A DNA stretch of 12,438 bases, taken from positions 1 to 12,438 of the forward strand of contig NZ_JBAGBW010000036.1 of NCBI RefSeq assembly GCF_039822205.1. Reading direction: 5' to 3'. Numbering within the stretch: position 1 is the first letter of the stretch; the number at the start of each line of letters is the position of its first letter. The DNA is from Thermodesulfobium sp. 4217-1 (GTDB taxonomy: Bacteria; Thermodesulfobiota; Thermodesulfobiia; Thermodesulfobiales; Thermodesulfobiaceae). The notes below the pieces were generated by a model. The model saw only the letters and a program-made list of their open reading frames with translations, had not been told where the DNA came from and did no database searches. This document shows positions 41-12,412 of this stretch, one piece after another. A program made the translations under genes and the position numbers.

Positions 41-2479
41 ATGTTTGAAAAGTTTACCGAAAAGGCAGCCAAGGCTATAATCCTTGCTCAGGAAGAAGCC
101 AAGCGCTTGGGCCATAATTTCGTCGGTACTGAACATATACTTTTAGGTCTCTTGGCTGAAGGAACAGGCATTGCAAACAAGGTTATAAATTCTATGGATA
201 TAGAACCACAAGATATAAGACGTGAAGTAGAAAGACTGATAGGCCGCGGCGGCGGCACGCTTATATCGGAAATACCATTCACGCCAAGAGCCAAAAGAGT
301 ACTGGAGCTTTCATGGGAAGAAGCAAGGCTTCTAGGCCATAATCACATAGGCACTGAGCATATACTTCTCGGTCTTCTTAGAGAGGGAGATGGCATTGGA
401 GCAAGAGTTCTAAAATCGTTTGGCCTGGATATAGGAAAAGTTAGAAGCCAGATTATACAAATAATATCTGGCGGATCAGTGATTAAAAGCAAAGAATCAA
501 GCCGTACTCCACTCCTGAATGAGTTTGGAAGAGATCTTACGGCCCTTGCACGAGAAAAAAAGTTAGATCCTGTAATAGGAAGAGATAAAGAAATAAAAAG
601 ACTAATACAGATAATGTGCAGGAGAACGAAAAACAATCCTGTACTTATCGGAGATCCAGGTGTAGGCAAAACTGCAATAGTTGAAGGCCTAGCCCAATCA
701 ATAGTTGATGGCGGTGTCCCGCTTTTACTAAGGAAGAAACGTTTAATCTCCCTTGATCTTGGATTACTAATAGCAGGCACGAAATATCGCGGAGAATTCG
801 AGGATAGACTTAAGAAAATAACAGAAGAAATAAGAAGCTCTGGAAACATAATACTCTTTATCGATGAGTTGCACACAATAGTTGGGGCTGGTGCTGCCGA
901 GGGAGCGGTAGATGCTGCCAACATACTCAAGCCCGCTCTTGCAAGGGGTGAAATCCAATGTATCGGAGCAACGACTGTTGAAGACTATAGAAAGCATCTC
1001 GAAAAGGATGCGGGGCTCGAGAGAAGATTCCATCCCATACAGGTCGAAGAGCCAACCCAAGAGGAAGCAATTCAAATATTAATGGGCCTAAGAGAAAGAT
1101 ATGAAACGCATCACGGAGTAAAAATTTCCGAAGATGCAATTATGTCATCAGTAAAACTCGCCAAAAGATATATTTCTGACAGATTTCTGCCAGACAAGGC
1201 GATAGACGTTCTTGACGAGGCATCTGCAAAAGTAAAGCTAAAAGAGCCTGCCATATCAGATGCATGGAAAGACCTTTACAAACAATTGGAATATGTAATT
1301 GCAGAAAAAGAAAGCGTCATAAGAATGCAAGATTTTGAAAAGGCTGCGATCTTAAGAGACGATGAACAAAAAATAAGAGATGAAATATCTACTTTTAATA
1401 ACCAGGAAATAGACGATACCCTGGAGGCCAAGATAGTAACCGAAGAAGATATCGCAGAAATAGTTAGCGAATGGACGGGAGTAGAGTTAAAGAAACTTAC
1501 CGAGTCTGAAATGAAGAAGCTGTTGAACCTTGAAAATGCTCTTCATAAGAGAATAGTTGCTCAGGATGAGGCCGTAAGATCAATTGCAAAAACACTAAGA
1601 AGAACAAGGGCGGGTCTCCAGGATCCCAAAAAGCCCTTAGGATCTTTTTTGTTCTTGGGGCCAACCGGAGTAGGAAAGACTGAGCTTGCAAAAACACTTG
1701 CCGAATACCTTTTCGGAAGTGAAGAATCGCTATTGAGATTTGATATGTCAGAATATATGGAAAAGCACACAGTATCGCGTTTGGTTGGAGCTCCTCCTGG
1801 ATACGTTGGCTACACCGAAGGTGGCCAGCTTACTGATGCCGTCAGGAGAAAGCCCTCATCTGTCATTTTGTTTGACGAGATAGAAAAGGCTCACCCCGAT
1901 GTGTTTAACCTCTTGTTACAGATATTAGATGACGGAAGATTGACTGATGGAAAGGGCAGAACGGTCAATTTCAAGAATACAATTCTTATTATGACCTCTA
2001 ACCTTGGAACACACATGCTAAAAGAGGGCTCACCCGGATTTTTAGCATCCTCAAACGCACTTGATTACGAAAAACTGAAAAGTCAAATTCAAAAAGAACT
2101 CAAGGATACCTTTAGACCAGAATTTTTAAACAGAATAGATGAAATAATAATATTCAGCTCTCTTTCACAGCCAGACATGCTCAATATAACAGAAAAAATA
2201 TTAGAAAATGTAAAGGACAAGCTGAAGGTAAACCTGATAGACATATCTTTCTCTGAAAAGGCTATAGAACAATTAGCCAAAGAGGGCTTTGACCCAAAGT
2301 TTGGAGCCAGACCACTAAAAAGACTAATCCAAAAGAGAATAGAAGACCCGATAGCTGACAAGATCATAGAAGGCTCAATTAGAGCAAACGATAGCATAGA
2401 AGTCGACCATAACTCAACTGAGTTTGTATTTAAAAATATACAAGAGCTTGTACCAGCGAGGAGCTGCAATAGCAAATAA
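41..2479 (+). CDS. clpC: ATP-dependent Clp protease ATPase subunit ClpC
   Basis: ClpC is a cytoplasmic hexameric AAA+ unfoldase that threads misfolded, damaged or regulatory proteins into the ClpP peptidase. At 812 residues it has the usual family length. Two Clp-N repeats fill about residues 1-145. The first AAA+ module has Walker A GDPGVGKT (204-211), Walker B LFIDE (272-276) and arginines 328-329. A UVR/M-domain coiled coil (about 410-450) marks ClpC rather than ClpB or ClpA. The second AAA+ module has Walker A GPTGVGKT (540-547), Walker B ILFDE (609-613) and a C-terminal small domain with FGARPLKR. The ClpP-docking loop (about 660-668) reads PGF (665-667), where family members have a hydrophobic residue before GF. 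The start is fixed by GGAGGT. The 3' end overlaps radA. McsB or MecA would be the expected adaptors, but neither is in view. Confidence 0.97.
2459..2471 (+). promoter_or_regulatory. Ribosome binding site and probable ATA start codon of radA
   Basis: AGGAG at 2459-2463 is followed by five bases and then the in-frame codon ATA at 2469. The next residues read [14 protein letters not shown], which matches the usual RadA opening (M-A-K-rich, then F-x-C-x-x-C-G). The only conventional in-frame starts upstream are TTG at 2424 and 2448. Neither has a Shine-Dalgarno sequence, and both add an atypical N-terminal extension. Confidence 0.55.
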
Positions 2480-3818
2480 AAATAAAAATAATTTCATATG
2501 TACAGAATGTGGATTTGAATCTGCTGTCTGGAAGGGGCAATGTCCAATATGTAGTTCTTGGAATAGCTTTCAATCAAAAGACGACATATTGGAAAAAGAA
2601 AGTGTTCTTCAGTTAGATGATTTAGTTTATGTTGAAGAAGAGAGATTGACATTTGAGTTACCCGATCTAAATGATATTTTTGGTGGCGGAGTTGTTAAAG
2701 GCTCCGTCACATTGCTTTCTGGAGAGCCAGGCATTGGAAAGTCAACCTTAGCTCTTCAAATGGCAAATCAAATTTCGAATCGATATCAAGAAGTCCTATA
2801 CATATCAAGCGAAGAATCTGCAAACCAGGTGGCATCCAGAGCAAAAAGATTGAACCTAAATGAGAAAAATTTAAAATTCCTTTCCTGCTCCGATCTAAAC
2901 AAGATACTTAAAACAGTGAAAAATTATAATTTTTCTATGATTGTAATTGATTCTATACAAATGCTTTATGATTCTGAAGAGGCCTCGTCTTTGGGATCTC
3001 CCTCCCAGATGAAACAATGCGCATCAAAAATAAACTTGTTTTCCAAGCAAACAAATACCCCTTTTTTATTAATTGGTCACATAAATAAAGAAGGCTCAAT
3101 TGCAGGCCCAAAATTTATTGAGCACTTGGTTGACAGCGTCTTGTTCTTTCAGGGAGACAGGTCTTCTACCACAAGAACCCTTAGGTCTTTAAAAAACCGT
3201 TTTGGATCGACGAATGAATTAATTATTTTTGAGATGAAGGAAGAGGGTCTAATAAAACCCAAAAATATCTCAGAGCTAATTTTAAAAAATAGCGATCTCT
3301 CAGGAACTTCTTTTTGTATAACCATGGAAGGCTCCAGGCCTCTTCTTGTACAAGTTGAGTCTCTTGTTAACCAATCCTTCAAAACTAACTCAACTAGGCT
3401 CTCTCACGGCATAAACTTTAATCACTTCATGCTAATAGTAGCAATTTTAGAGAAACATCTAAATATGAAACTGTACGATAAGGATATCTACATAAACATA
3501 ACTGGCGGTATCACAACAGAAGACAGAGGTATAGATCTTGCAATTGCAGTATCATTAATTTCATCTTATTATGATATCATTATTCCAAAGAGTACACTTT
3601 TTATAGGAGAATGCTCTTTATCTGGAGAAGTAAGAGCTGTATATAATATTGAAAAAAGACTTTTAGAGGCATCAAAAATTGGTATCAAAAAGGTCTTTGC
3701 GCCTGACATAAAGACAAAAGTTAAAGATTTAGATTTGAATGAAATAAAAAAACTAAAAGATTTAACAGATTGGATAAAAGAATGGAAAACTCAGTATTCA
3801 AAAGAAAAGATTGGTTAA
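2469..3818 (+). CDS. radA: DNA repair protein RadA (Sms)
   Basis: RadA is a RecA-like hexameric ATPase that drives branch migration and processes recombination intermediates in homologous recombination and repair. Numbered from the ATA start (449 residues, normal length), a C4 zinc finger uses Cys 11, 14, 25 and 28. The RecA-like core has Walker A GEPGIGKS (85-92), Walker B around VIDS (159-162) and the RadA-specific KNRFG motif (242-246). The segment [12 protein letters not shown] (203-214) is also typical. The C-terminal Lon-like domain (about 290-440) includes DIYINITGG and [12 protein letters not shown]; it serves as a structural DNA-binding domain in RadA, not as a protease. The gene overlaps the clpC 3' end by 11 bases and runs 37 bases into disA. 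If ATA is not used, the start would be TTG 2448 or TTG 2424, giving up to 464 residues. Confidence 0.95.
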
Positions 3819-4867
3819 AATCTCTAAAATTGATTTCACCTGGAAACCCATTAAGAGATGGTGTGGACCTAATCCTTGATGCCAGAGGAGGTGCGCTTAT
3901 TGTTGTAGGCAGTCCAGAAAAAACCCTGCCAATAACAGTTGGAGGCTTTCCTCTCGAAATAGAATTTACTCCTGCCAGATTATTTGAATTGTCAAAGATG
4001 GATGGAGCCATAATACTAAATGCTGACGCAAAAACGATATTAAGGGCAAACGCACTCCTTATACCAAATCCAAACATACCATCTGTAAACACTGGGTCAA
4101 GACACCAGGCGGCAGAAAGGTTTGCAAAGCAAACAGGCGAATTGATAATAGCGATCTCAGAAAGAAGAGGTGTGGTGACTCTATATAAAGGAGATGTAAC
4201 ATATCCTTTGAAAAGCAGCGCATCTATTGTGGGGCGCGCAAATCAAGCACTCACCACGCTTGATAGCTACAAACAAGTTTTTAATCGCTCGCTCGAACAC
4301 CTATCTGTCCTTGAGTTCACAGACAGCGTTACAGCATCAGATATCGCAAATATCATCACCAGATCTGAAATGCTAAAATTTATTGAAGAAGAGATAGAAA
4401 CATATATTATACAGCTTGGCAAAGACGGTCTCTTAACGAAATGGCAATTGCTCGAACTCATGTCCGAAGTTAAAGAAACCGAGGTTTTAATTCTAAAAGA
4501 CTACCTCAACGAAGAAAAATTAACAGATATAACAAAATTACTTGAAAATTTAAAACAGCTTAAGTCTGAACAAGACATATTAGATCAGATTGTAGTAATG
4601 AAACATCTTGGTTTCAACAATCCAGACCAACCTTTAACTCCAAAGGGTTATAGAGTATTAGGAAATGTGCCTAGGCTGCCATCGGCAATTGTAGAGAAGT
4701 TGATTGTAAATTATAAAAACTTGAACAACTTGTTGGAAGCAAAAGAAGAAGATCTCGACAAGCTCGAAGGTGTAGGCAAGATTAGAGCACATCAGGTTGT
4801 AAGCTGTCTATCAAGGATGAAAGAAGTTACAAAGATATCTTCTTCAAGAGATATCAAAAAGAATTAA
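3782..4867 (+). CDS. disA: Diadenylate cyclase / DNA integrity scanning protein DisA
   Basis: DisA scans DNA and makes cyclic di-AMP from two ATP, lowering synthesis at branched DNA such as stalled forks. RadA is a known partner, which fits its position just upstream. The protein has 361 residues, the family norm. The N-terminal DAC domain (about 1-145) carries DGA at 74-76 and PITVGGFPL at 50-58. The second catalytic motif, normally RHRTAER, reads RHQAAER (107-113): the third motif residue is Gln and the Thr is Ala. A helical linker spans about 150-285. A C-terminal helix-hairpin-helix DNA-binding domain spans about 285-350, with LPSAIVEKLI (299-308) and GVGKIRA (330-336). ATG 3782 is preferred over TTG 3770, which adds four residues; neither has a strong ribosome binding site, so coupling to radA is likely. 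Family membership is certain, but full catalytic activity is not. Confidence 0.93.
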   Translation: MENSVFKRKDWLKSLKLISPGNPLRDGVDLILDARGGALIVVGSPEKTLPITVGGFPLEIEFTPARLFELSKMDGAIILNADAKTILRANALLIPNPNIPSVNTGSRHQAAERFAKQTGELIIAISERRGVVTLYKGDVTYPLKSSASIVGRANQALTTLDSYKQVFNRSLEHLSVLEFTDSVTASDIANIITRSEMLKFIEEEIETYIIQLGKDGLLTKWQLLELMSEVKETEVLILKDYLNEEKLTDITKLLENLKQLKSEQDILDQIVVMKHLGFNNPDQPLTPKGYRVLGNVPRLPSAIVEKLIVNYKNLNNLLEAKEEDLDKLEGVGKIRAHQVVSCLSRMKEVTKISSSRDIKKN

Positions 4868-6817: not shown

Positions 6818-6909
6818 GGAGAGGTGTCCGAGTGGCCGAAGGAGACCGCCTCGAAAGCGGTTAGCTGATTAATTTCGGCTCGTGGGTTCAAATCCCACCC
6901 TCTCCGCCA
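6818..6909 (+). tRNA. tRNA-Ser (anticodon CGA)
   Basis: The 92-base gene folds completely. The acceptor stem pairs GGAGAGG (6818-6824) with CCTCTCC (6899-6905), followed by discriminator G and an encoded CCA. The anticodon stem ACCGC/GCGGT encloses CT-CGA-AA, with the anticodon at 6852-6854 reading UCG. A long variable arm, AGCTGA (6863-6868) with TCGGCT (6875-6880), marks it as class II serine tRNA. The T-arm is GTGGG-TTCAAAT-CCCAC (6882-6898). No terminator separates it from the next gene, so it probably heads a tRNA-mRNA transcript and is released by tRNA end processing. Confidence 0.96.
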
Positions 6910-6935: not shown

Positions 6936-7142
6936 TTGAGACAGAATAGAAATGTTGATTTTTTTCTTTTAGGAACGCTGACAGGAAGCTTGGCTTTTTT
7001 TATCGTCTCTTTTATGCTTTGCTCAGGGAAGCTCGATGTTAGCCTTCAGCCCGAAACAATTAACTCAAAAAATAGAGATCCCAAAGATCTATTAAAAAAC
7101 ATTGACTCACGGCTAAAGGAACTTGAAAAAGAAAAGCTTTAA
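6936..7142 (+). CDS. Small single-span membrane protein, function unknown
   Basis: The likely start is TTG at 6936, because GAGGTG (6924-6929) lies six bases upstream. In-frame starts further left fall on this binding site or inside the tRNA. The 68-residue product has a short charged N-terminus, one hydrophobic span at about 9-28 (DFFLLGTLTGSLAFFIVSF) and a 40-residue polar tail. The tail ends in a helical, coiled-coil-like stretch rich in Lys, Glu and Leu. The layout recalls YtxH-like small membrane proteins, but I cannot assign it to a family. It lies 27 bases after the tRNA and 5 bases before the first Ppx/GppA gene, so it may tether or regulate a polyphosphate enzyme at the membrane. That role is inference from position only. 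Confidence 0.6.
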   Translation: MRQNRNVDFFLLGTLTGSLAFFIVSFMLCSGKLDVSLQPETINSKNRDPKDLLKNIDSRLKELEKEKL

Positions 7143-7147
7143 CACCC

Positions 7148-8722
7148 ATGGATAAAAGTGAAGACAGCAACTCTTATGTCAAGGAAGCTAAAAAGACAGA
7201 AAGTAAAATAATTGGAATTATCGACATAGGGGCAAACTTTGTCAAAGCCCATATAGCCCAGAAAAAAAACGATAGAATATTCGAAACAATCGAAGACATA
7301 AAAAAGCCTCTTTCGATCGGCAAGGACACCTTCTCAATAGGCAGAATTTCAAACACAATACTGCTCCAATTAACAAAAATACTCAAGGAATTAAAGGATT
7401 TATTTAAAGCATACGAGGTGGAAGAAACCTTGGTTTTTGCCTCTACCGCTATCAGAGAAGCAAAAAATTGTGATTTCATAATTGAAAGAATAAAGATTGC
7501 CACAGGAATAGACATTAAACTAATAGAGACAATCGAAGAATCTTTTTATAAATATCAATATATGAAAAGGCATGACTGCTATCTCAGACTGTTCGGCAAT
7601 AAATCAGTTTTAATTTTTGATATAGGTTCTGGTGGACTTTCCCTAATGATAGTAGAAAGAGACAAGCTTAAATATGCGTCAAATCTTGAAATAGGATCGC
7701 TAAAATTAAGAGCGCTACTCTCAAGCCTTGAAAGAGAAACGCTTGATTTTGCAGAGATACTAGATGAGTTCATAGAAAGCAAGATGCACACCATCTCACA
7801 GGAGATAAAAAATTATAAAATAGATTTTGCGATTGGCCTTGGAGGAGAAAGCAAAGTAATTTACAATCTAATCTTTGAAGAAGAACCCCCAAGGGATATT
7901 AGCAATATAAGTAAAGAAAAACTTTTGAAATTTTATAACGAAATTAAAGACAAAACCACAATTAACCTTGTTGAAGACTATTATTTAATGCCGCCAGTTG
8001 CCAATGTCCTTTTGCCATCAACTATTATTTTTAAAAAGATATTAGATATTTGCGAAATTAATGAAGTTGGGATTATGGGTTTCTCCTTTAGGAGCGCAGT
8101 AGCAAATTCAATTCTGATGGACGAAGGCGCTCTTTACGAAGATGACATATTAAGCGTTTCAGAAAGTATTGCAAAAAAATATTTAAGAAATATTAATATG
8201 TCTCACAACATTCTGAGATTTGCCGTTTCGATTTTTGACTACACCAAAAATTATCACGCAATGGGAGACAAAGAAAGACTTCTCTTAAAGATGGCCTGCA
8301 TTTTACATGACGTTGGAAAATTTGTAGATGTAAACGATCCAGGAGAACACTCATATAATATTATTAGCTCCGCAAAGATTCCAGGACTCAGCAGCGAGGA
8401 AAGAGACATCATCGCAAATTCAGTTAAGATATATCAGGAAAGAGATCCAGATGAAAAAGATTGTTCATTTAGTTGTAAAACAATTAAAGATAGGCTAACC
8501 ATAACAAAAATAGCAGCTATATTAAAGCTTTCCAACGCTCTTGACTCCTCACAAAAGGGGAAGATTCAAGACATAAAATTAGAGATTGAAGAACACTATC
8601 TGATATTTAAAACCCTTACTCATGACGACATTCTCCTTGAAAAGTGGCATTTTGATAATGAATCTATTTTCTTTAGAAGAATTTTTGGCCTAATTCCTGT
8701 TTTAAAAGTTATCCCGCAATGA
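7148..8722 (+). CDS. Divergent Ppx/GppA-family protein with C-terminal HD domain
   Basis: The family hydrolyses polyphosphate (Ppx) or pppGpp (GppA) in the cytoplasm. The 524 residues show the actin-like core: IIDIGANF (24-31), FASTAIREA (97-105), ETIEES (127-132), FDIGSGGLS (157-165) and GLGGES (230-235). The HD-type domain has H353, HDVGK (387-391), H401 and LSNALD ending at D466. Two phosphate-contacting signatures are altered. The usual D-x-G-S-N-S is DIGANF, and the usual D-x-G-G-G-S-T-E is DIGSGGLS, losing the Thr and the conserved acidic residue. The HD residues are intact. It may therefore be a weak exopolyphosphatase, a polyphosphate or nucleotide sensor, or an enzyme acting through its HD site. 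It has no clear ribosome binding site, starts 5 bases after the small membrane protein gene and overlaps ppk by 4 bases. Confidence 0.85.
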   Translation: MDKSEDSNSYVKEAKKTESKIIGIIDIGANFVKAHIAQKKNDRIFETIEDIKKPLSIGKDTFSIGRISNTILLQLTKILKELKDLFKAYEVEETLVFASTAIREAKNCDFIIERIKIATGIDIKLIETIEESFYKYQYMKRHDCYLRLFGNKSVLIFDIGSGGLSLMIVERDKLKYASNLEIGSLKLRALLSSLERETLDFAEILDEFIESKMHTISQEIKNYKIDFAIGLGGESKVIYNLIFEEEPPRDISNISKEKLLKFYNEIKDKTTINLVEDYYLMPPVANVLLPSTIIFKKILDICEINEVGIMGFSFRSAVANSILMDEGALYEDDILSVSESIAKKYLRNINMSHNILRFAVSIFDYTKNYHAMGDKERLLLKMACILHDVGKFVDVNDPGEHSYNIISSAKIPGLSSEERDIIANSVKIYQERDPDEKDCSFSCKTIKDRLTITKIAAILKLSNALDSSQKGKIQDIKLEIEEHYLIFKTLTHDDILLEKWHFDNESIFFRRIFGLIPVLKVIPQ

Positions 8723-10884
8723 TCAGAGAAAGAATCTACAACATAAATAGAGAGCTATCTCTTTTAGAATTCAACAAGAGAGTGCTTGAGGAAGCGAAAG
8801 ACGGCAGTAACAAACTCTTTGAAAGGCTAAAATTTCTTTCCATAGTTAGCTCCAATATGGACGAGTTCTTTATGATCAGAGTAAGTTCAATTATAGACAA
8901 GGTGCTCGACGATTTCGTATTTCAGGACTCATCAGGTCTAACTCCTGAAGAGCTTTACAAGGAAATTACCTTAAAAGCTCACCAGATATCCCAAGATCAG
9001 CAAACTCTTTTTTTGGAAGAACTCATGCTTCTTTTGAAAAAAAACAACATAAATATATTAAAAATCAATGAGTTAAGCCCAAACCAGCTAAACTTTGTAC
9101 AAAAATACTACAAAAACACTATTTACCCAGTGCTAACTCCTATGGCTGTGGATAGCTCAAGGCCATTCCCTTTTATTCAGAGCAGAACCCTAAATATATT
9201 TGTCTTATTAAGATCAAATTCCGATTATCTTGTAAAAAATAAAAACCAAAAACTTAAAAAGGAAGATGTTTTCGCAATAATTCAGGTGCCAGGCGTCTTA
9301 GACAGATTTATTTCCCTACCCTCTGATAAGAACAGTTACAGCTACATACTCTTAGAAGACATAATAGCCCACCACTTAGGCGACCTCTTCAACAACCAAG
9401 AAATTGTCTACAATTCACTCTTCAGGATCACAAGAGATGCCGATCTCACTATAGACGAACAAATTGCAGAAGATATATTAGAAGAAATAGAAAAGTCTTT
9501 AAAAAGAAGAAGATACGGCGAGGTAGTTAAGCTTGAAATAAGTAAAGATTGCCCTGAAATTTTAGAAAATTTTTTAAAAGACAATTTCGAGCTTGACGAA
9601 GAAGATGTATATAAAATAGATGGACCATTAGACTATACCTTCCTAATGAAGTTTTCCAATCAAGAAATTGCAGCGTTCAAAAGTCTTAAAGACATCCCTT
9701 TGCAACCAGTAAGGCCAATCGATTTCTTGACAGCTGACAATACAACCATATTCGATCTGATAAAAGAAAGAGATCTCTTGCTGCATACCCCGTTTGAGAG
9801 CTTTGAAAAGATTATAGAATTTGTTCGCACAGCAGCACAAGATCCAGATGTTCTCGCAATAAAAATGACACTATATAGAGTCACGAAAAATTCCCCAATA
9901 GTAAAAGCCCTTGAAGAAGCTGCGGACAATGGCAAGCAGGTAACGGTAGTTATTGAGCTAAAAGCTCGTTTTGACGAAGAAAACAACATCATATGGGCCA
10001 AGAAGCTCGAAAAAGCAGGCTGTCATGTAGTATATGGGCTCACCCACTTAAAGGTCCACTCAAAAGCCATTCTAGTTGTCAGAAAAGAAGAGGGTACAAT
10101 AAGAAGATATGTTCATCTTGGGACTGGAAATTACAATGAAAATACTGCAAAGATTTATACAGACCTCAGCCTGTTTACCAGCAATGTCTACTTTGGAACA
10201 GACGTATCAAATCTTTTCAACACGCTGACAGGACTTTCCCAGCCAAGTCACTGGTATAAGATAGGGGTTTCACCCATCAACTTAAGAGAGAAAATAATTA
10301 GATTGATAAGAAGAGAGTCAAAATATCGCTCTAACGGACACATTATAGCCAAAATGAACGCCTTAGTAGATGATGAAATAGTAAAAGAGCTCTATCTCGC
10401 ATCGATAGAGGGGGTAAAAATAGATCTAATTGTGAGAGGAATATGCTGCCTAAGGCCCAGTATAAAAGAAATCAGCGAGAATATAAGAGTAATTAGCATT
10501 GTGGGAAGATTTCTTGAACACAGCAGGATATTTTACTTCAAAAATGATTCAAATGAAGAGATATATCTTTCAAGCGCCGACTGGATGCCAAGAAATCTTG
10601 ACAGAAGGATAGAAACAATTTTCCCTGTTGAGAGCGAAGCATTAAAGGAGAGAATTAAAAAGTGTCTAAACATAATGTTAAAAGACAACGTAAAAGCAAG
10701 AGATCTCAATGAAGACGGGAGCTATATCAGAGTCCCAAAAAATTCACAAAATCAAATAGATAGCCAAATGCTTCTATATGAAACAATATTAAAAAGTGCT
10801 GAAGTCAAGAACAAAGAAATCAAGACGATAAAGAGTATGGAATTCGTCCCCATCCAAAATTTTGATGACGAGACAGCAATATAA
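8719..10884 (+). CDS. ppk1: Polyphosphate kinase PPK1
   Basis: PPK1 reversibly transfers the ATP gamma-phosphate to inorganic polyphosphate through a phosphohistidine intermediate. The 721-residue protein has all four domains. The N-terminal domain opens INRELSLLEFNKRVLEEA (9-26) and contains SSNMDEFFMIRV (44-55). The head domain includes PVLTPMAVDSSRPFPFI (137-153). The two phospholipase-D-like catalytic domains follow. The autophosphorylated histidine is H447 in LKVHSKAIL, and the second catalytic histidine is H601 in RFLEHSRIFYF. HLGTGNYNENTAKIYTDLS (466-484) and SSADWMPRNLDRRIE (618-632) are hallmark motifs. It is slightly longer than the E. coli enzyme because of a tail after about 670 with no recognised motif. 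The start overlaps the previous stop as ATGA, with no ribosome binding site, indicating translational coupling. The core looks fully active. Confidence 0.97.
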   Translation: MIRERIYNINRELSLLEFNKRVLEEAKDGSNKLFERLKFLSIVSSNMDEFFMIRVSSIIDKVLDDFVFQDSSGLTPEELYKEITLKAHQISQDQQTLFLEELMLLLKKNNINILKINELSPNQLNFVQKYYKNTIYPVLTPMAVDSSRPFPFIQSRTLNIFVLLRSNSDYLVKNKNQKLKKEDVFAIIQVPGVLDRFISLPSDKNSYSYILLEDIIAHHLGDLFNNQEIVYNSLFRITRDADLTIDEQIAEDILEEIEKSLKRRRYGEVVKLEISKDCPEILENFLKDNFELDEEDVYKIDGPLDYTFLMKFSNQEIAAFKSLKDIPLQPVRPIDFLTADNTTIFDLIKERDLLLHTPFESFEKIIEFVRTAAQDPDVLAIKMTLYRVTKNSPIVKALEEAADNGKQVTVVIELKARFDEENNIIWAKKLEKAGCHVVYGLTHLKVHSKAILVVRKEEGTIRRYVHLGTGNYNENTAKIYTDLSLFTSNVYFGTDVSNLFNTLTGLSQPSHWYKIGVSPINLREKIIRLIRRESKYRSNGHIIAKMNALVDDEIVKELYLASIEGVKIDLIVRGICCLRPSIKEISENIRVISIVGRFLEHSRIFYFKNDSNEEIYLSSADWMPRNLDRRIETIFPVESEALKERIKKCLNIMLKDNVKARDLNEDGSYIRVPKNSQNQIDSQMLLYETILKSAEVKNKEIKTIKSMEFVPIQNFDDETAI

Positions 10885-10885
10885 C

Positions 10886-12412
10886 ATGGGAAAACGATTA
10901 TCTGTAATAGACCTTGGCTCAAACTCTATAAGACTGGGAATTATAGAGGTAAACGAGGACAAGAGCTTTAGAATACTTGAGGAAAAAAAAGAGCAAGTCA
11001 GGTTGTCAGAAGGATTCTACAAGAATAGCTTCATCCAGGAAAAACCCATTAGAAGGGCCATCCAAACGCTTAAGACTTTTAAAAAGATTATTGAATTTTA
11101 TGACACAAAAAAAATTATAGCTGTAGCTACAGCATGTATTAGAAATTCAAAAAACGGAAAAGACGTCTTAGATCTGATCTTTAAAGAGACGCTCATAACA
11201 TTTAAAATTATCTCTGAAAAAGAAGAATCATATTATGGATACCTTGGAGCATTAAATACAATTAATTTAAGAGACTTCATACTTGCAGACACTGGAGGCG
11301 CCAGCACTGAGATTACCCTTGTAAAGGACAGAAAGATAGTCAATTTTGTTTCGATTCCCTATGGAAGCGTAAACCTTACAGATATGTTTTCAGAAACAAA
11401 AGAAATATGTGACACAAAAAATATAGAAAATTTTTTGAAAAAAGAACTTCAGAATATCCCATGGCTAAAAGACGTTAAATTGTCAGGAATGCCAATTGTA
11501 GGAATAGGAGGATCAAATAGGACCTTTGCAAAGATACACAGAGCTCTTCATAAATGGTTTTCGCTAAAGCTGCATCATTATGAGCTGACAAAAAATGAGG
11601 TTTTTCAAATATATTCATATATTGCAAATTTAAGTTCAAAAAATAGAAAAAATATAGATGGTCTCTCAAAACAAAGATCTGACATCATCTTAGCAGGAAT
11701 GGCTCCTTTGAAGGTGTTATTCGACATAACAAATTCGGACAAATTTGTTGTTAGCGGAAATGGCCTTAAGGAAGGGTTAATTTTTGATTCGTTAAGCAAC
11801 GACTTTAAGATTTATCCTTTAATATACGAAAATATTTTGGACAACAGTTTACTAAATATTGCTAATTTATATTTTTTGGACATAGAGCATGCAAAAAGAG
11901 TTACCCACCACAGCCTATCAATATTCGACCAGATGAGGCCCCTTCACAATTTTGACGAAAATGATAGGAAATTATTAGAAATAGCATCGTTTTTACACGA
12001 CATCGGAAAGTACGTAGATCCTTACAATCATGCAAAACATGGCGCATACCTAATCCAAAACCTTCCTATATACGGAGTAAACCCAAAAGATCTCATAAGA
12101 TGTTCATATATTTGCCTATTTCACGAAAATAAAATCAAATTTCAACAACTTCCCAATGAATCCTTTATATCTGAAAAACAATTTAAAGATATCATAAAAC
12201 TTTCAATATTTTTAAGGCTCGCTGAACAGATAGAAACATGCGAATGTGCCGCAATAAAAGCTGTAACGATCAGTATAAGAAATAATGAGGTACTGCTTAA
12301 ACTAAGAAAGAGCTATGAAGAATATGACACAGAAACCGAAATTATAGAGCTCTCAAAGTCAAGCAAGGTTTTCAAAAAATTCTTTAAAAAAACCTTAACA
12401 ATAGCAAGATAG
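10886..12412 (+). CDS. ppx: Exopolyphosphatase / Ppx-GppA family protein with C-terminal HD domain
   Basis: This is the likelier working exopolyphosphatase (or pppGpp hydrolase) of the pair. ATG 10886 is chosen because MGKRLSVIDLGSNSIRLGII matches the canonical opening; TTG 10862 and ATG 10865 lie inside ppk and add unrelated residues. The 508-residue protein keeps DLGSNSIRL (9-17), ATACIRNS (81-88), SEKEESYYGYLGA (110-122), DTGGASTE (135-142) and GIGGS (206-210). The HD-type domain has H335, HDIGK (371-375), NHAKH (381-385) and H413. The final segment LRLAEQIE ends in E450, where an aspartate is usual (ALD). The gene begins one base after the ppk stop, so the two are surely cotranscribed. 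Pairing with ppk suggests control of polyphosphate level by synthesis and breakdown. Only 26 bases follow the stop, with no terminator seen. Confidence 0.92.
   Translation: MGKRLSVIDLGSNSIRLGIIEVNEDKSFRILEEKKEQVRLSEGFYKNSFIQEKPIRRAIQTLKTFKKIIEFYDTKKIIAVATACIRNSKNGKDVLDLIFKETLITFKIISEKEESYYGYLGALNTINLRDFILADTGGASTEITLVKDRKIVNFVSIPYGSVNLTDMFSETKEICDTKNIENFLKKELQNIPWLKDVKLSGMPIVGIGGSNRTFAKIHRALHKWFSLKLHHYELTKNEVFQIYSYIANLSSKNRKNIDGLSKQRSDIILAGMAPLKVLFDITNSDKFVVSGNGLKEGLIFDSLSNDFKIYPLIYENILDNSLLNIANLYFLDIEHAKRVTHHSLSIFDQMRPLHNFDENDRKLLEIASFLHDIGKYVDPYNHAKHGAYLIQNLPIYGVNPKDLIRCSYICLFHENKIKFQQLPNESFISEKQFKDIIKLSIFLRLAEQIETCECAAIKAVTISIRNNEVLLKLRKSYEEYDTETEIIELSKSSKVFKKFFKKTLTIAR

Follow-up and report, generated by a model that had tools for sequence, protein, structure and literature searches.

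Two genes of the Ppx/GppA-HD family flank ppk1 at the end of the 12,438-nucleotide stretch of Thermodesulfobium sp. 4217-1 DNA analysed here (the window), raising the question of what each of the two proteins, termed P1 and P2, does next to a polyphosphate kinase. To our knowledge, the control of PPK1 is poorly understood. The initial annotation of the locus had described P1 and P2 as paralogues that have diverged in opposite active sites, P1 acting through its HD site or as a sensor of polyphosphate or (p)ppGpp and P2 serving as the exopolyphosphatase. We examined this proposal by residue-level alignment, phylogenetic analysis and comparison of gene neighbourhoods.

Organisation of the ppk1 locus

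P1, ppk1 and P2 are tightly packed on one strand (Table 1). The TGA stop codon of P1 overlaps the start codon of ppk1 in the sequence ATGA (8719-8722), and a one-base gap separates the ppk1 stop codon from the ATG of P2. All four genomes of the genus share this order, confirming the coupled, single-strand ppx-ppk-ppx arrangement that had been described. Pfam profiles assign the Ppx-GppA domain and the HD-like Ppx-GppA domain III to P1 as well as to P2, and for P1 the family fold is supported across domains I-III (PF02541, E 2.4e-19; PF21447, E 2.4e-17). The matches of P1 to NCBIfam models are far below the model cut-offs, so that P1 has no curated name. A profile search of the genome revealed no PF02541 genes besides P1 and P2. 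In PPK1 the residues H447, H466 and H601, corresponding to E. coli H435, H454 and H592, are conserved.

Table 1. Coordinates of the features of the ppk1 locus within the window
Feature	Position	Strand	Basis
Small membrane-like one-helix protein, possible operon member	6936..7142	+	Translations compared in G000, G001, G003
P1, degenerate Ppx/GppA-HD protein, 524 aa	7148..8722	+	PF02541 and PF21447; lost core/HD residues; clade placement
P1 loop 1, DIGANF (family DxGSNS)	7223..7240	+	Alignment
P1 loop 2, DIGSGGLS (family DxGGGSTE), catalytic Glu replaced by S165	7619..7642	+	Alignment
P1 H387-D388, the sole HD pair kept	8306..8311	+	Alignment
P1 N463 at the aligned HD-domain metal-site Asp	8534..8536	+	Alignment, covariation
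ppk1, polyphosphate kinase 1, 721 aa, catalytic residues conserved	8719..10884	+	Full PPK1 in Pfam; aligned histidines
P2, predicted Ppx/GppA-HD exopolyphosphatase, core site intact, 508 aa from ATG	10886..12412	+	Pfam; residue scoring

The small gene ahead of P1 encodes a product of about 68 aa with a charged tail and ends 5 bases before P1; the protein is conserved in three genomes of the genus and has no match in Pfam. Just upstream lies a tRNA-Ser gene with the anticodon CGA (6818-6909), and genes for a ClpC-like protein, a RadA-like protein and DisA (diadenylate cyclase) follow each other on one strand at 41-4867.

The arrangement had also been called unusual. Among the distinct ppk loci that were read with both flanks, Ppx genes on both sides of ppk were found in this genus only; these loci were sampled through Ppx hits, and the rarity of the sandwich elsewhere is thus an indication and not a measured frequency. 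The P1-ppk half of the arrangement, in contrast, is widespread, as detailed below.

Active sites of P1 and P2

To assess the core (ASKHA) active site, P1 and P2 were aligned with E. coli Ppx, H. pylori PPX/GppA and A. aeolicus Ppx, and a second alignment comprised 144 full-length Ppx-HD proteins, with residues numbered according to the mutagenised D. radiodurans PPX (PMC11234463). Like the family members with a C-terminal HD-like domain, i.e. E. coli Ppx and GppA, H. pylori PPX/GppA and D. radiodurans PPX, both proteins share the domains and the length typical of the family. In P1, however, loop 1 (starting with D26) and loop 2 (starting with D158) carry the substitutions S/T10 to A29, S12 to F31, G139 to S161, S141 to G163 and E143 to S165, R271 is replaced by V284, and E and G of the REG motif are changed to S and A, leaving P1 without the loop serines, the catalytic Glu of loop 2, the R271 equivalent and the REG E and G of the family. 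The equivalents of D7, N11, R86, E114 and D136 are retained (D26, N30, the Arg of helix 1, E131 and D158), E131 corresponding to the catalytic E114. P2 has DLGSNS and DTGGASTE as loops 1 and 2, in keeping with the family patterns DxGSNS/T and DxGGGSTE, together with the equivalents of E114 and R271 and the E and G of the REG motif, where Lys replaces the Arg. Scored by aligned positions, P1 retains 7 of 11 core residues and P2 all 11, the latter in each of the four genomes of the genus, and the residue states of both core sites are constant across these genomes. With Ser and Val at the positions of E143 and R271 P1 lacks a complete catalytic core. In D. radiodurans PPX the single substitutions E143A, R271A and S12A lower kcat/Km from 2.28 to 0.04, 0.13 and 0.18, respectively (PMC11234463).

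The HD domain was scored in the same way, yielding two of six ligand positions for P1 and five of six for P2. The first HD histidine of the family aligns with M351 of P1, an Ile in two species of the genus, and the first two histidines of HHKH and the histidine of YHRK are missing as well. H353 is located two residues past the family position and is absent in G001 and G003. The metal-site Asp is the first Asp of the A-D-x-L-D motif, which correlates with the first His over all alignment rows (0.55) and, within the ppk1-linked clade described below, with two other histidines (0.77); it is N463 in P1 and E447 in P2. D466 of P1 and E450 of P2 are the second Asp position of this motif, which does not track with the other HD ligands. 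The ligand series H...HD...D is consequently incomplete in P1, its first His and its metal-site Asp being absent in all four genomes. In P2 the first His, both residues of the HD pair and the two further histidines are in place, and the last Asp is Glu.

These alignments bear out the core losses described for P1 (SNS to ANF in the first phosphate loop, S-T-E to GGLS in the second) and the intact loops of P2, and the retention of H387-D388; the P1 changes are the same in four genomes. The HD assignments fared differently: H353 and D466 of P1 do not occupy ligand positions, and the Glu at the last Asp of P2 is E447 and not E450. Divergence in opposite active sites thus does not hold: judged by aligned residues, both sites are degenerate in P1, and P2 has kept both nearly intact. 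Two AlphaFold models, built from shallow alignments with mean pLDDT values of 64 and 59, were too weak for a three-dimensional judgement of either site, and their HD geometry was not used. A Foldseek search with the P1 model showed a Ppx-like N domain and nothing beyond that.

Ancestry of P1 and the ppk1-linked clade

P1 and P2 share about 23% identity. In a tree of 60 proteins P1 is part of a clade of 17 (support 100/99) and P2 is placed elsewhere, and a constraint uniting P1 and P2 in one clade was rejected (p-AU 6.4e-5), ruling out a recent tandem duplication as their origin. The term 'paralogues' is appropriate in a broad sense only, as the two proteins represent separate, old lineages. 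We also asked if the degenerate proteins group together because of their common losses. A tree of the N-terminal half without the active-site motifs recovered the degenerate group (support 86), and a tree of the C-terminal half recovered P1 with the group from operons of the order intact Ppx-degenerate copy-ppk1 (A-B-ppk; support 87), with three intact relatives located inside the wider group. As the motif-free and half-protein trees still unite the degenerate proteins, an artefact of common losses was dismissed; some long-branch pull on the grouping is possible.

P1 is under strong purifying selection: its dN/dS against the nearest relative is 0.051, as compared to 0.036 for PPK and 0.088 for P2. 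This value rules out a decaying pseudogene, and such constraint despite the loss of residues in both sites implies that P1 is retained for another task.

In a larger tree of 144 Ppx-HD proteins the clade containing P1 has 60 members, leaving 84 others. The genes of 57 of the 60 clade members, and of one of the 84 other proteins, are followed directly by ppk1 on the same strand. The R271-equivalent Arg is missing from all 60 and present in all 84, and the full set of E114, D136, E143 and R271 is present in none of the clade members vs 79 of the others. Because the sequences are related and the search was seeded with P1-like proteins, these counts describe the clade rather than independent events. 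P1 belongs to the clade both by its placement in the tree and by its position directly upstream of ppk1. Related degenerate copies hold the same place before ppk1 in many distant bacteria, either in A-B-ppk operons or as a lone degenerate copy, and in one phylum 37 of 50 genomes gave a strong match of the A-B-ppk type. Of the 22 clade genomes checked, 18 encode no PF02541 protein apart from the degenerate one, indicating that the conserved partner of the clade is PPK and not an active Ppx. Judged from sequence, P1 is a member of an old, supported and unnamed group of degenerate Ppx/GppA-HD proteins, and the open-licence literature searched gave no description of this clade, nor of a pseudo-Ppx, a ppk-linked inactive Ppx or Ppx-HD partners.

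The HD ligands vary within the clade. Single-copy members have mostly retained them, A-B-ppk members are variable, and P1 and one subgroup of eight have lost most of them. In this subgroup (L152-L159; G421-G426, G429 and G430) much of the HD site has disappeared from the degenerate copy and from its intact partner alike, in parallel to P1.

Proposed role of P1

The loss of both active sites, combined with a position kept before ppk1, suggests a partner or sensor of PPK1 rather than a second degrading enzyme. We therefore favour, with moderate confidence, that P1 is a catalytically dead protein of the Ppx/GppA fold that is co-produced with PPK1 and serves as its non-catalytic partner or sensor, P2 being the exopolyphosphatase. 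A ligand, be it polyphosphate, (p)ppGpp or another nucleotide, would occupy the old ASKHA cleft of P1 without being hydrolysed; by translational coupling and probably by direct contact, P1 might control or scaffold PPK1. P2, from a different Ppx lineage, would be the working exopolyphosphatase. Conservation of gene order can also reflect shared expression without contact. Of the division of labour suggested initially, the roles of P2 as exopolyphosphatase and of P1 as sensor or regulator fit the evidence; action of P1 through its HD site, with two of six ligands, does not.

Such action, e.g. on (p)ppGpp or cyclic nucleotides, is the least probable of the readings we weighed. H387-D388 is kept, and of the 21 clade members that belong neither to the A-B-ppk group nor to the genus, 19 have complete ligands or lack a single one, which makes HD activity plausible in the clade at large. 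For P1, the ligand positions missing in four genomes led us to reject an HD-site enzyme. P1 might instead be a weak or altered phosphatase that uses its core site on a different substrate, which we regard as unlikely. The residues it keeps there, D26, N30, the helix-1 Arg, E131 and D158, mean that weak hydrolysis may remain; D. radiodurans PPX E143A still has about one tenth of the wild-type kcat (PMC11234463), and M. tuberculosis Rv1026 is a Ppx-GppA homologue without exopolyphosphatase activity that nevertheless hydrolyses ATP (PMC3411833). In P1, however, at least five substrate or catalytic positions are altered together, and the Arg lost throughout the clade is the polyphosphate-binding one. 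Somewhat less likely still is that P1 assists P2 instead of PPK1, as part of a heterodimer or as a regulator of the exopolyphosphatase. Ppx proteins do dimerise (PMC11234463), P2 is encoded in the same operon, and in A-B-ppk operons the degenerate copy adjoins an intact one, but P1 and P2 are of separate lineages and most clade genomes checked have no other Ppx that could be assisted.

Two known systems come closest to a PPK1-linked, non-catalytic P1. M. tuberculosis likewise has two Ppx-GppA homologues, Rv0496 and Rv1026, one of them without detectable exopolyphosphatase activity (PMC3411833), a likeness in gene number and activity. The Streptomyces phosin PptA, a CHAD protein, binds polyphosphate, is co-transcribed with ppk and has been proposed to be an accessory factor, and a relative showed no exopolyphosphatase activity (PMC8003754). 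PptA thus resembles P1 in its location in a ppk operon and provides a precedent for a polyphosphate-binding accessory protein; unlike P1, it has the unrelated CHAD fold, its gene follows ppk, and its proposed role is to assist degradation (PMC8003754).

If P1 acts on PPK1 as proposed, this conserved, translationally coupled and catalytically broken relative of the opposing enzyme would suggest itself as a polyphosphate or (p)ppGpp sensor that feeds back on PPK1. More tentatively, the whole clade may consist of undescribed, widespread pseudo-exopolyphosphatases that are dedicated PPK1 subunits or ligand sensors. 'Ppx/GppA' annotations in the lineages of the clade name proteins that lack the residues needed, including in genomes without any other Ppx. 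The domains are also found apart: at L044 (8672-10173) the Ppx core and the HD domain are split over two adjacent genes, and stand-alone HD relatives are present at L045 and L050.
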